Source: Actinomadura alba
GTDB taxonomy: Bacteria; Actinomycetota; Actinomycetes; Streptosporangiales; Streptosporangiaceae
DNA: 64,000 nt
Assembly: GCF_014323705.1 (NCBI RefSeq)
Contig: NZ_JABVEC010000002.1
Location: 124,001 to 188,000 of the forward strand
Direction: 5' to 3'
Shown: positions 21,423 through 25,613 of the stretch, in pieces
Layout: every line of letters begins with the position of its first letter
Numbering within the stretch: position 1 is the stretch's first letter
Notes under the pieces: generated by a model
Told to the model about the DNA's origin: nothing
The model's database searches: none
The model's input: the letters and a program-made list of their open reading frames with translations, nothing else
Position numbers and translations under genes: made by a program

Positions 21423-22973
21423 CTATCGGGCGGGGTGGAGATCGGTCGTGTAGAGCACCGTGCCGTTCAGGTCGCGCAGGCGAACGGTCAGCTCCTTGCT
21501 TTCTGCGTCGATCGAGACCTCGCCGAAGAACTGGAAGCCCTCGGCGGGTGAGCTGTTCGCCGCCGGCGGCGTCTTGGCGAAGCGCAGCTGGGGTCCGAAC
21601 GTTCCCTCGAGGTTGTTGGGGCCGAAGGCGCCCGCGTTGAGCGGGCCGGAGACGAACTCCCAGAACGGGTCGAAGTCGCTGAACGCGGCCTTGGCCGGGT
21701 CGTAGAAGTGGGCCGCGGTGTAGTGCACGTCGGCGGTCAGCCAGACCATGTTCTTCACGCGGTGCCGCTTCGCGTACGACAGCAGGTCGGCGATCTCCCG
21801 CTCACGCCCCAGCGGCCGCCCGCCATCGCCCTGCGCGATCCCCTCGGACGCGGTGCCGTCAGGGACGATCAGGCCGATCGGCAGGTCCGCCGCGATGACC
21901 TTCCAGGTGGCCTTGGAGGCGCGCAGCTCGCGCTTGAGCCATGCCAGCTGCTCGGCGCCGAGCAGGCCCGGGCCGCTGGTGGAGTTGTTCGCGCCGTTCG
22001 GGTCCTTGTAGGTGCGCATGTCGACGACGAACACGTCAAGCAGCCCACCGTGCTCGATCTTGCGATACATCCGGCCGTTCGCCCCGCGGATCGCGCTCGG
22101 CGTGTACTCGATGGTCGCCTGCCGGGCCCTCGCGGCGAGGACGTCGACGCGCTTCTCGGTGTAGCGGGCGTCATCGAGGATCTCGCCGGGGTACCAGTTG
22201 TTGACCACCTCGTGGTCGTCCCACTGGTAGATCGTCGGCACGGCCGCGTTGAAGGCGCGCAGGTTGGCGTCGAGCAGGTTGTAGCGGAACTGGCCGCGGT
22301 ACTCGGCGAGGGTCTCGGCGACCTTGGCCTTCTCCGCGGTGACCAGATTGCGCCACGTGCGTCCGTCCGGCAGCGTGACCGTCTCGGTCAGCGGCCCGTC
22401 GGAGTAGACGAAGTCGCCGCTGCACAGGAAGAAATCCGGCTCGAGCGCGGCCATCGACTTGAAGATCCGGTAGCCGCCGAAGTCGGGGTTGATGCCCCAG
22501 CCCTGTCCGGCCAGGTCACCGGACCAGACGAAGTTGATGTCGCGGTGGCCGGACGAACCGGATGAAGGGGTACGGAAGCCGCCGACCGTGGGAGCGGACG
22601 AGATCCGGTCCCCGTCGAGCCGTACCCGGTAGTGGATCTGGCGGCCGGACGGAAGGCCGGTCAGGAACGTCTTGCCGGTGAAGTCGGTGTCGGCGGTGAG
22701 CAGCGGGCCCCCGATGGTGCGGGCGTGCTTGAAGTCCGGGCGGTCGCTGACGTCGACGAGCATCCGCGCGGTCCGGTCGGAGCGCGTCCATACGACGCCG
22801 CCGTGCGCCGTGACGTCGCCGCTCTGCACTCCGTGCGTCAGCTGTGGCCGGCCGCCGCGTACCAGCGAGGGCGCCGCCACGGCGGAAGCTCCCGCGCCGA
22901 GGATGGTCCCGCCGCCCACGACGCCGCCTGCGACAAGGCCGGTTCGAAGGAAGGTCCGCCGGTCCAACACCAT
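21423..22973 (-). CDS. phoD: Secreted alkaline phosphatase D (PhoD)
   Basis: The 516-residue protein starts with a twin-arginine signal (RRTFLRTG, residues 5-12, then a hydrophobic stretch), consistent with export in folded form. The PhoD N-terminal beta domain (LTHGVQSGDVTAHGGVVWTR) precedes a metallophosphatase domain with metal-site segments VWSGDLAGQG, DFFLCSGDFVYSDG, YQWDDHEVVNNWYPGE and MVWLTADVHYTAAH. PhoD enzymes are Ca/Fe-dependent phosphomono- and diesterases that scavenge phosphate from nucleotides, phospholipids or teichoic acids outside the cell. The length fits the family. It is transcribed alone, divergent from the Cys-leader/cupin unit. No PHO box was identified with confidence. 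Confidence 0.93.
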   Translation of the reverse strand: MVLDRRTFLRTGLVAGGVVGGGTILGAGASAVAAPSLVRGGRPQLTHGVQSGDVTAHGGVVWTRSDRTARMLVDVSDRPDFKHARTIGGPLLTADTDFTGKTFLTGLPSGRQIHYRVRLDGDRISSAPTVGGFRTPSSGSSGHRDINFVWSGDLAGQGWGINPDFGGYRIFKSMAALEPDFFLCSGDFVYSDGPLTETVTLPDGRTWRNLVTAEKAKVAETLAEYRGQFRYNLLDANLRAFNAAVPTIYQWDDHEVVNNWYPGEILDDARYTEKRVDVLAARARQATIEYTPSAIRGANGRMYRKIEHGGLLDVFVVDMRTYKDPNGANNSTSGPGLLGAEQLAWLKRELRASKATWKVIAADLPIGLIVPDGTASEGIAQGDGGRPLGREREIADLLSYAKRHRVKNMVWLTADVHYTAAHFYDPAKAAFSDFDPFWEFVSGPLNAGAFGPNNLEGTFGPQLRFAKTPPAANSSPAEGFQFFGEVSIDAESKELTVRLRDLNGTVLYTTDLHPAR

Positions 22974-23127
22974 GGATGACTCCTGTCTCGATCAAGTGAC
23001 CATGCGCATGATGCGCGGCGTTCGCGAACTGCGCCAGACCCGATGATGTCCATCCGGCGAATCCGGCAGGTCGATGGCGTGGCACCCGGTTTGACAACCC
23101 ACCGTGATGGAGTGTCTCCTTGTGCGC

Positions 23128-23238
23128 ATGCCAGCGCGCGATTCTCGTCGTGACCCGATGGTGCCGGGCTCAGCGTTCTCCGCCGAGCTCCGCAGCCGTA
23201 CGGGCGCCGCGCTGTGTCCTTCGTGTTGTTGTCGCTGA
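23128..23238 (+). CDS. Cysteine-rich leader peptide (candidate attenuator)
   Basis: This short frame encodes 36 residues beginning MPARDSRRDPMVPG and ending AALCPSCCCR before TGA 23236-23238. Four Cys codons, three consecutive, lie immediately before the stop. This is the hallmark of actinobacterial cysteine-responsive leader peptides. In-frame alternatives upstream are GTG 23122 and ATG 23107. A TTGACA at 23091-23096 would place the transcript start near 23128, so leaderless translation is possible. The next gene is a cysteine dioxygenase-like cupin starting 91 bases after the leader stop. Expression is inferred; the Cys cluster and the pairing described for 23216-23320 are directly visible. 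Confidence 0.7.
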   Translation: MPARDSRRDPMVPGSAFSAELRSRTGAALCPSCCCR

Positions 23239-23320
23239 CCGCTGTCCCAGCCGCGTTTCCAGCGTCACAGTCCCGGCTCCGGCCACCCTGTCTTCGGGCG
23301 CCCGCCCGTACACGAAGGAC
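23216..23320 (+). promoter_or_regulatory. Predicted Cys-codon/Shine-Dalgarno pairing (attenuation element)
   Basis: GTCCTTCGTG (23216-23225), inside the leader codons for Cys-Pro-Ser-Cys, is the exact reverse complement of CACGAAGGAC (23311-23320), which contains the AAGGA ribosome site of the cupin gene. One more A-U pair (23226 with 23310) and two G-U pairs (23215 with 23321, 23214 with 23322) extend it. A ribosome paused on the Cys codons would keep the ribosome site free; without one the site would be masked. Confidence 0.6.
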
Positions 23321-23328
23321 GTCTCCCT

Positions 23329-23853
23329 GTGGACCTCGATCTCATTCCCGACATCACGATGCGCGGCCAGGACGACCCGCATGGACGGGTGGTGACCAGG
23401 CGCCCGCCCACGGTCGGCCAGCTCGCCGCGCTAGTACGAGAGCACACCGGGCGGCCCGGGGACTGGTGGCACCAGGTGCGGTTCGACCCGTCCGGGCCGG
23501 TCAGCGTGCGGCTCCCCGGTGCCGAGGACGCCGACGTGTGGCTGACCGCGTGGCCGCCGGGATGCCGCACTCACCTGCGCCCGCACGAGAGTGACGTGCC
23601 GCAGGTCGCCACCTTGATCGCGGGAGAGCTGGCCGAGGTCACCATCGCGGCCGATGGGGTCACCGAGCGTCCGCTGCGCGCCAACCGGGTCCGCGTCTTC
23701 GGCGGCCGTCCCCGTCCGCGCCGAGGCGACGACGGCCATCTGCACGAGCTCGCCAATCCCGGTACGAGCTTCGCCATCACCCTGCACGCCTCCGGTACGA
23801 GCCGGGCCGCCGACGGGTCGTCCGGTCCGTCGCCGGACCGCGCCGGCCGCTGA
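23329..23853 (+). CDS. Cysteine dioxygenase-like cupin protein
   Basis: The 174-residue product has the outline of a type I cysteine dioxygenase cupin: WLTAWPPGCRTHLRPHE (residues 71-87), a strand reading VATLIAGELAEVTI, LRANRVRVFGG, and HELANPGTSFAITLHASG near the C-terminus. The iron-binding HDHG of true enzymes is replaced by LRPHE, so at least one metal ligand seems altered and cysteine oxidation is uncertain. The start is GTG 23329, with AAGGA 9 bases upstream that is predicted to be masked by the Cys leader. The last 20 residues are Ser/Arg-rich and probably disordered. No rhodanese or sulfur transporter is adjacent. Family assignment is moderate; sulfur metabolism is supported mainly by the leader. 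Confidence 0.6.
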   Translation: MDLDLIPDITMRGQDDPHGRVVTRRPPTVGQLAALVREHTGRPGDWWHQVRFDPSGPVSVRLPGAEDADVWLTAWPPGCRTHLRPHESDVPQVATLIAGELAEVTIAADGVTERPLRANRVRVFGGRPRPRRGDDGHLHELANPGTSFAITLHASGTSRAADGSSGPSPDRAGR

Positions 23854-23874: not shown

Positions 23875-24072
23875 TCAGGGCTCGCGACGGCGGGCCCGGG
23901 TCAGCACTCGCACCAGGCCCACCACGCCGAGGCCGATGAACACGGCGGGCCCGAGTATCTCCGCCCGCACGATGGCCCGTTCGGCGAGGCCGCCGGCGAG
24001 GTAGACCGCCGCGACGGCGAGGAACAGCAGGCCGGCGAGCAGCGAGCCGGGGTCGAAGCGGTGCTTACGCAA
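23875..24072 (-). CDS. Small two-helix membrane protein
   Basis: The 65-residue product MRKHRFDPGS... contains two hydrophobic helices (LLAGLLFLAVAAVYLAGGLA and ILGPAVFIGLGVVGLVRVL) and a basic tail RARRREP. It starts at TTG 24072, overlapping the 3' end of the PspC-domain gene by 8 bases (TTGCGTAA), so it is translated from the same message. Small two-helix proteins next to PspC/LiaF-type genes often take part in envelope stress sensing; that role is an inference here. Confidence 0.7.
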   Translation of the reverse strand: MRKHRFDPGSLLAGLLFLAVAAVYLAGGLAERAIVRAEILGPAVFIGLGVVGLVRVLTRARRREP

Positions 24073-25438
24073 GGCTCACCTCCACGTTTCCGATCCGGCT
24101 TCGTACGTGGAGCTCGATGACCGGTGGGTTCTTCGGGCGGCTCTCGGGCTCCAGCAGCTCGTTCACCTTGGCGTTGGGGCCACTGGTGACCCGGCGCTCC
24201 ACGGTCGCGTCGCCGAGCCCGGCTCGGACGTGGAGGTCGATCCGGGCCGTCCGCGGCACCTTGACCAGCAACTCACCCACCGTGAGCTCGGCGTTGACCC
24301 TGATCCGCTGCCCCGGCACCAGCGGCAGGGCCGTGAGGTCCAGCCGTCCGCTTCCCACGGCCACCTTGTAGAACTGTTCGGACCTGGTCGCGTCGACCGG
24401 ACGCCACTCGACATCACCGAACCGGCCGTTCACAGGTGCCTCCGCGATGACGGACGTCGTCACCAAGCCGAGCGACAGGACTGTGCCGCAGGCCATGAGA
24501 CCCCGGCCACGGCCGTACATCGATGCGATCAACAACCCGAACCCGACGACGGCCAGCCCCGTTGCGGTCCCGATCTGTACGGCACTGTTCGGCGGATGGC
24601 CGACGGCGACCGGGACCATCGCGGCCACCGCCATCATCGCCACGAGCAGGATGACCGGCGTGAGTACGGAGGGTCCGCAGGAGGGCGCCGGCCCGCCGGC
24701 GGCCCGCGGGGGCGGCGTCCCGGGCACGGTGAACCGGCCCGGCCCGGGGTGCGGGCCCGGCGGAGACGGCGGACCGGGCGGAGACGGTGGAGACGGTGGA
24801 ACGGGCGGGGCGGCGCGCCCGGCTGAGCCCTTTCCCAGCGTGGCCAGGTCGATCATCCCGGGGAGCAGTCCGGTCTCCTTGTCGAAGGCCACGGGCCGGG
24901 CGGCGGGCGCCGGCGGTGGGGGAGCCGGCGACCGCAGTGGCCGGCCCTGCAACCGTTCGGGGAGAGTCCGGGCCAGCTCGGCGAAGTTCACGCCGCGGGA
25001 GTGCGCGACGAGCAGGACCAGGGCGAACACGGGGACCACGGTGAGCGCGGTCTGGGAGCGCCCGGCGCCGGTGAAGCTGAGCAGCACGCCGAGAGAAAGC
25101 AGTCCGCCGAGGATGGCGAGCGTCGTGTCGCCGTCGAAGCGGCGTCTCAGGATCTGCTCGGCGAAAGACGGGCCCGCGTCCGAGGAGTCCGGACGTTCGT
25201 CCGGCATGAGCAGCGCGGCGGCCACGTACAGCAGGATGCCGGTGCCGTTGGCCACGACGAGCAGAGCGAAGCCGATGCGGAAGATCAACGGGTCGATGCC
25301 GGTGTAGCGGCCCAGACCCGCGCAGACCCCGTTGACGATACGGCCCTCCCGGGCGCGCGGCAGCCGGTCCGCTCCGCGGGGCGCGTACCCTTCCTTCGCG
25401 GGTTCGGCCCGGCCAGGTCCAGCGCTGTCGTCACTCAT
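24065..25438 (-). CDS. PspC-domain membrane protein with LiaF-like C-terminus
   Basis: Residues about 25-85 form a PspC domain (REGRIVNGVCAGLGRYTGID then hydrophobic GFALLVVANGTGILLYVAAALLM). Two further membrane blocks follow (about 105-145 and 255-330), separated by a Pro/Gly-rich cytosolic linker. The final 120 residues are a beta-rich domain (TVGELLVKVPRTARIDLHVR, RIGNVEVSLA) of the LiaF/DUF4097 type. Such proteins monitor membrane or cell-wall stress and restrain a LiaS-like kinase. ATG 25438 is used; GTG 25444 would add two residues. It is divergent from a PspC-containing histidine kinase and its response regulator, with about 175 bases between. The grouping strongly suggests one envelope-stress system. 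Confidence 0.85.
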   Translation of the reverse strand: MSDDSAGPGRAEPAKEGYAPRGADRLPRAREGRIVNGVCAGLGRYTGIDPLIFRIGFALLVVANGTGILLYVAAALLMPDERPDSSDAGPSFAEQILRRRFDGDTTLAILGGLLSLGVLLSFTGAGRSQTALTVVPVFALVLLVAHSRGVNFAELARTLPERLQGRPLRSPAPPPPAPAARPVAFDKETGLLPGMIDLATLGKGSAGRAAPPVPPSPPSPPGPPSPPGPHPGPGRFTVPGTPPPRAAGGPAPSCGPSVLTPVILLVAMMAVAAMVPVAVGHPPNSAVQIGTATGLAVVGFGLLIASMYGRGRGLMACGTVLSLGLVTTSVIAEAPVNGRFGDVEWRPVDATRSEQFYKVAVGSGRLDLTALPLVPGQRIRVNAELTVGELLVKVPRTARIDLHVRAGLGDATVERRVTSGPNAKVNELLEPESRPKNPPVIELHVRSRIGNVEVSLA

Positions 25439-25613
25439 GGACACATGGTCTCGGTTCGGACTCCCACGCGGTATCAGGGAGACCCCTGATACGACCCTGA
25501 GGCCTCGCGCCGGTCGATTCGGGGGACGCCCCGATACCGCCGCCCCGCCATACGTGTGACCATCGCTTCAGAAGGCGGGCCACGCCCGCCGGAAGGCACA
25601 CCAAGGGAGACCG

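Follow-up and report, generated by a model that had tools for sequence, protein, structure and literature searches.

A cupin gene behind a short Cys-codon frame

The window analysed here is a stretch of 64,000 nucleotides from the genome of Actinomadura alba (8.38 Mb in 100 contigs), whose actinobacterial origin is indicated by the relatives of the cupin described below. The cupin gene lies between a divergent gene for a PhoD-like phosphatase and a convergent gene for a PspC-domain protein, so that the cupin gene and the short leader frame in front of it appear to be a one-gene unit (Table 1). Homologues of PhoD and PspC are found in the flanks of 30 and 31, respectively, of 47 relatives, which implies the same chromosomal place in those relatives. 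Rfam gave no match to the window at gathering scores.

Table 1. Features of the leader-cupin locus, in positions of the window
Feature	Position	Strand	Basis or remark
PhoD-like phosphatase gene	21423-22973	-	divergent neighbour of the cupin gene
Putative -35 element TTGACA of the promoter for the leader	23091..23096	+	37 nt upstream of the leader ATG
Frame of the leader peptide, MPARDSRRDPMVPGSAFSAELRSRTGAALCPSCCCR-stop, perhaps leaderless	23128..23238	+	sequence; Cys leader in 47/47 named relatives
Codons TGT CCT TCG TGT TGT TGT (Cys-Pro-Ser-Cys-Cys-Cys)	23215..23232	+	predicted sensor of charged tRNA-Cys
Predicted masking helix, 5' arm (GTCCTTCGTGT), within the Cys codons	23216..23226	+	sequence, folding
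Predicted masking helix, 3' arm (ACACGAAGGAC), includes AAGGA 23315-23319	23310..23320	+	sequence, folding
Cysteine dioxygenase-like cupin gene, 174 aa, from a GTG start to its closing stop codon	23329..23853	+	aligned metal positions R-H-H
PspC-domain protein gene	24065-25444	-	convergent neighbour of the cupin gene

The leader had been annotated initially as a 36-codon frame ending in Leu-Cys-Pro-Ser-Cys-Cys-Cys-Arg-stop, and this is what the sequence holds, from ATG 23128 to TGA 23236-23238 with the C-terminus ...ALCPSCCCR*. Clustered Cys codons near the stop of a short upstream ORF are therefore present. The reading frame is open further upstream, to GTG 23104 and ATG 23107, and the start at 23128 is the one that has TTGACA at the conserved spacing. 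Upstream of ALCPSCCCR the window leader has little in common with the leaders of its relatives. Neither Pfam nor the leader family NF042934 (cut-off 27 bits) matched it; with the same model and cut-off, the leaders of five relatives gave 13.2-13.8 bits in three cases and no match in two. Most leaders end in Arg and stop, written CGC TGA, immediately behind the Cys run (23233-23238 in the window).

When the genome was searched with TGTCCNTCNTGYTGY, one mismatch gave 87 matches as against 60 for the reversed control, and the three exact matches were the window leader and two places (L065, L067) that do not resemble leaders; these were set aside.

Conservation of the leader among relatives

A first search for close relatives of the cupin, across 84,980 species each represented by one genome, gave 47 confirmed loci, and all 47 have a Cys leader before the same gene, in a frame that lies 33-106 nt before the matched stretch and ends in ALCPSCCR or a close variant. 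Within Actinomadura the leader peptide is well conserved. A second search covered 120 genomes of the same family, 38 of which had some match to the cupin; all 19 matches at E <1e-25, the own copy and seven copies of named loci among them, are preceded by a Cys leader, shortened or altered in three. Eleven of the weaker family matches were fetched (L093-L103, a part of them): five have Cys-run leaders, one is truncated at the edge of its contig, and no leader of the Cys-run kind was recognised in L098-L102 (E 1.6e-10 to 4.7e-8).

Scanning the order for the leader tail itself, with at most two mismatches, we found matches in 53 of 345 genomes, 20 of them exact. Among the 14 exact matches inspected, 13 stand before a cupin of this family, remote members being L093/L140, L135 (hhalign probability 99) and L136. 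The remaining one, L134, precedes a protein whose membership of the family is doubtful, with no Pfam match and an hhalign probability of 53.5. A near-identical leader tail thus occurs in other genera before proteins without the full metal triad (L135, L136) or of doubtful kinship (L134). Two places with two mismatches (L137, L138) were rejected as leaders of the cupin.

The counts below refer to 69 loci, all having a Cys leader: the window, the 47 named relatives and 21 unnamed loci. L134 is kept in these counts, and the copies L076, L077, L078, L081, L082, L083 and L087, the contig-edge locus L094 and L098-L102 are left out. The pair table was made without L013, L080, L088 and L096, and A1 and the tree without L049; nine rows were likewise omitted from the tree. 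In L049 (3001-3564) the cupin frame looks broken with leader and helix intact, by sequencing error or as a pseudogene.

Predicted masking of the ribosome site

It had been noted at the outset that 23216-23225 and 23311-23320 are exact reverse complements. This is correct, and the perfect Watson-Crick helix is one pair longer, 11 bp (23216-23226 with 23310-23320), or 13 with G-U pairs. Its 3' arm takes in the AAGGA at 23315-23319, which stands 9 nt from the GTG at 23329. The computational folding proposed for the region returns the same helix: the predicted fold of 23108-23340 includes it (z -2.49; 3 of 200 shuffles reaching this stability), and so does the fold predicted for 23200-23340 (z -1.82; 11 of 200), in which the start codon GTG 23329 is paired as well. 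Compared with 400 stretches of 30 nt drawn at random from the neighbourhood, the helix reaches p 0.007 with Watson-Crick pairs only and 0.002 with G-U. By computation, then, a Cys-tract RNA structure hiding the ribosome site of the next gene is present; the statistics from one genome are modest, and conservation is the stronger evidence.

A Watson-Crick helix of at least 7 bp joins the leader tail to the ribosome-site region in 62 of the 69 loci, and the same 62 reach p<0.05 against random windows. Homologous loci lacking both the Cys run and the complementarity would have spoken against the feature; what we found is a Cys leader in every one of the 47 relatives and the helix in these 62. The seven loci without a 7-bp Watson-Crick helix are L026, L079, L080, L088, L091, L092 and L096. 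In L079 and L080, which with L013 form one supported clade of the tree, the helix is shifted, with the Cys codons facing CGACGACAACAG-like sequence just before AAGGA in 9-10 pairs including G-U. L036 and L009 have extra leader codons and yet retain the pairing segment, with 9 bp each.

The same stretch of RNA might instead act in transcription attenuation, the position of the ribosome on the Cys codons deciding whether transcription stops, at an intrinsic or Rho-dependent terminator, or runs on into the cupin gene. There is indeed a weak hairpin resembling a terminator at 23202-23219, with T's in its tail, where shuffles expect 0.1, and one occurs at the corresponding place in all four relatives scanned (L004, L007, L020, L030), hence in five of five in all; moreover, Seliverstov et al. 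suggest Rho for the mycobacterial cys leaders in the part of their paper concerned with these (PMC1262725). However, the 3' arm of the hairpin includes the first Cys codon, several of its pairs are G-U, and its T's are those of TGT codons. A pattern scan of the window and the four relatives found no terminator between the leader stop and the cupin gene, and the conserved pairing is aimed at the ribosome site, so that we hold this mode of control to be unlikely.

Constraint on the nucleotides of the leader tail

The Cys codons of the tails are TGT in 223 of 233 cases (69 loci) as against 54 of 521 in the background of 170 GC3-rich frames of the same loci, and the Pro that follows Cys is encoded by CCT in 58 of 60 cases as against 184 of 5216 (Fisher P 2e-123 and 3e-78, both overstated because the loci are related). 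This bias implies a constraint on the nucleotides, and CCT TCG is the part that faces the ribosome site.

Covariation of the two arms, which the initial annotation had suggested looking for, is modest overall. Within the fixed frame of 11 pairs, the sixth reads T-A in 58 of 65 loci and G-C in five (L015, L018, L021, L022 and L033, the first four being one clade), and these five retain only 6-9 of the 11 pairs; in another group of loci the helix is shifted, and in a few loci G-U substitutes for a pair. Permuting partners over the 31 distinct rows gave 276.5 +/- 2.3 against the 285 observed, with 4 of 5000 permutations as high. In a swap test the own leader had only a slight advantage (mean duplex with the SD -23.5 kcal/mol, as against -21.9 for swapped leaders), and the SD of several odd loci fits other leaders better than their own, which ranks 22nd of 69 in L013, 26th in L079, 54th in L017 and 58th in L091 and L092. 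Covariation is weak because most of the helix is invariant; it is conservation, among related loci, that carries the case for the predicted helix.

These data also bear on whether the signal could be the peptide, an arrest peptide or some other peptide-level signal (VALRRVASALCPSCC) to which the complementarity would be secondary. The good conservation within Actinomadura and a weak resemblance to NF042934, of up to 13.8 bits with a cut-off of 27, would fit such a signal. On the other hand, the window leader shares little with the others before ALCPSCCCR, and L091 and L092 are left with only MFSAFSCCCR. Third codon positions are mostly fixed to rare U-ending codons, and shuffling the tail removes the closure of the SD in most loci; a peptide signal accordingly seems to us very unlikely. 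The two minimal leaders have ten codons, with TAnnnT 6 or 7 bases before the ATG, and their cupins keep the full His triad.

Modelled ribosome occupancy

The effect of a ribosome on the Cys codons was modelled by making a 29-nt footprint single-stranded, with a fixed footprint and equilibrium folding. In the window this raised the probability that the SD is unpaired from 0.001 to 0.42. The gain exceeded 0.1 in 59 of the 69 loci with the ribosome on the Cys codons and in 9 with the ribosome early in the leader; the ten loci without such a gain are L009, L010, L013, L014, L026, L031, L079, L088, L092 and L135. A second run with other controls opened the SD by the same measure in 57 of 69 loci, as against 4 of 69 for footprints 30 nt upstream and 2 of the 52 loci with room for footprints 30 nt downstream. 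With the tail shuffled once, a ribosome on the Cys codons opened the SD in 5 of 69 loci, and in the free RNA the probability of an unpaired SD was below 0.1 in 57 of 69 native loci as against 3 of 69 with one shuffle each. A ribosome at the leader stop codon opened the SD as often as one at the Cys codons (59 of 69), so the signal would be dwell time.

We therefore read 23128-23238 as probably the leader frame of a translational attenuator that responds to cysteine and would turn the cupin on when this is scarce, with a confidence that the swap test and the single-Cys leaders discussed below have slightly reduced. The TTGACA 37 nt before the leader ATG suggests an mRNA that starts at or near this ATG. 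When cysteine is plentiful, ribosomes would clear the Cys codons fast and the helix would re-form, hiding AAGGA and GTG as the folding predicts. When it is scarce, too little charged cysteine tRNA would hold the ribosome at the Cys codons, and in the model its footprint over the 5' arm opens the site, so that the cupin would be made.

The cupin and its metal site

The cupin matches Pfam CDO_I (PF05995) with 33.1 bits, the cut-off being 23, and has no family assigned in NCBIfam; a thiol dioxygenase fold is predicted. Aligned to the canonical cysteine dioxygenase of the same genome, its metal positions read R-H-H, so that one of the three ligands is replaced, in agreement with the degenerate metal site annotated at first. 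Arg stands in place of the first His. Two residues ahead of it there is another His, a feature shared with the sister L075, which is the nearest relative and has His at the first metal position. Ser takes the position aligned to the active-site Tyr (rat Tyr157), which is kept in 3 of 69 loci. As a cysteine dioxygenase, the window protein thus has the Pfam match and neither the three His nor the active-site Tyr. The nearest solved structure is an ergothioneine dioxygenase of Thermocatellispora tengchongensis (PDB 8qfl-8qfr), with 23% identity; its fold matches, but compared with this enzyme and with cysteine dioxygenase the metal triad of the window cupin is incomplete.

Among the 47 unselected relatives the full His triad is kept in 19 and incomplete in 28, while the leader is kept in all; over the 69 loci the triad is incomplete in 44, some relatives being without all three His. 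Where it is broken or lost, the role of the cupin under cysteine shortage is likely to be other than cysteine oxidation. Members with an intact site may act on another thiol substrate, in sulfur scavenging, and the rest may have a non-catalytic role. A thiol dioxygenase that frees sulfur would fit scarcity, an idea that the nearest structure makes attractive by analogy; with the metal site gone, a non-catalytic role is the simpler reading. Tentatively, and with rather more doubt than assurance, we suggest that the starvation switch drives thiol-dioxygenase pseudoenzymes, for example a thiol- or cysteine-binding sensor or sink, the regulator having outlived the active site several times.

The regulation of this uncharacterised cupin would say that it is needed in cysteine shortage, and its ancestry that it is a destroyer of cysteine. 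The retention of the leader despite the loss of the metal site makes a non-catalytic role in sulfur starvation directly testable.

Other leaders in the genome and the polarity of control

NF042934 finds six places above its cut-off in the own genome, plus weaker ones. Downstream of leaders of this type lie genes for a TauE exporter (L051), a DUF4395 protein (L052), a nitrite/sulfite reductase (L053), a canonical cysteine dioxygenase with HDH and YSPP (L054), a HEAT-repeat protein (L055) and an SDF symporter (L056), and SsuE lies behind one below the cut-off (L057). Instead of a run, these seven leaders carry one Cys codon or two towards their end; that of the dioxygenase has one, and its gene starts 24 nt after the leader stop. 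Together they may make up a sulfur regulon of this genome in which ribosomes do the sensing. The cupin gene is therefore not the only gene of dioxygenase type with a leader peptide in this genome, and if leaders of the NF042934 type sense cysteine, which is an assumption, then a cysteine dioxygenase that looks functional is part of the same sulfur regulon.

This bears on the polarity, which the initial annotation had found opposite to what a cysteine-degrading enzyme needs. That masking would mean expression when cysteine is scarce still stands; the oddity of it is lessened, in that the canonical dioxygenase may share the arrangement. The reverse polarity could arise by translational coupling, where fast passage through the leader feeds ribosomes to the gene and turns it on when cysteine is plentiful. 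It is what a cysteine-degrading enzyme would need, and the opening of the site by a ribosome at the leader stop and the 24-nt distance in the canonical dioxygenase gene both fit it. Yet the gap is 90 nt here and 39-182 nt over the 69 loci, which is long for re-initiation, slow decoding of the Cys codons would prolong the open state, and the cupin is often without its full metal site. We regard coupling as the least probable of the explanations considered.

Relation to known leader peptides

Leaderless polycysteine short ORFs of mycobacteria reportedly work much as proposed here, ribosomes stalled on the Cys codons relieving the sequestration of the ribosome site. Canestrari et al. 2020 reportedly described this mechanism, and passages citing that work agree with it (PMC13236596, PMC9031893, PMC9094748). 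The likeness to known cysteine-responsive attenuators that had been pointed out, a Cys leader with ribosome-site masking, is thus supported, the masking by computation: the two are alike in the Cys cluster at the 3' end and, as predicted, in ribosome-site sequestration. They differ in that the present leader belongs to Actinomadura and relatives, controls a one-gene, cysteine dioxygenase-like target and has a putative leaderless start. The best reading of the leader-target pair is an attenuator of the mycobacterial type on an unexpected target, with leaderless start and cysteine response both putative. If true, ribosome-sensed control by cysteine reaches past the mycobacteria to Actinomadura and its relatives, with evidence from codon usage and predicted structure.

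Candidate Cys leader peptides are described before cys operons of Mycobacterium and P. acnes and before cbs of B. longum in a paper whose relevant part reports no conserved terminator-capable hairpin and leaves the mechanism open (PMC1262725), and Cys-rich leaderless uORFs before cysA2, Rv0485 and nirA in an excerpt of PMC4633059. To judge from these excerpts, such leaders share with the window leader the clustering of Cys codons near the stop codon, and those of PMC1262725 are unlike it in the conserved pairing to the ribosome site. Members of NF042934 (cis_reg_atten, 'putative leader peptide') are likewise short actinobacterial leaders with ALC near their end; unlike them, the window leader has a Cys run after ALC, which forms the 11-bp anti-ribosome-site segment. 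Of eight leader peptides of S. lividans, the relevant excerpt names none as Cys-dependent (PMC8079986), and cysteine is not mentioned in PMC11550727. Our literature search, which covered few subscription papers, yielded no account of a Cys leader in front of a gene like that for cysteine dioxygenase, in Actinomadura or in its relatives.

Promoter and transcript start

In 61 of the 69 loci an exact TTGACA precedes the chosen leader start by 32-42 nt, a count favoured by our choosing as start the in-frame ATG or GTG with the best promoter score. The -10 region of the window is weak (TCTCCT), and TAnnnT occurs 6-7 nt before the start in four of 69 loci only (L088, L091, L092, L103), none of which has the exact TTGACA. 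From these elements, leaderless transcription starting at or near ATG 23128 is plausible. Between TTGACA and the leader start there is also a conserved GTGTC block, which makes a GACA...TGTC inverted pair (23091-23116) that recurs in relatives and might serve as an operator in addition to the attenuator; in L036 the arms of this pair lengthen to GACATCGG/CCGATGTC.
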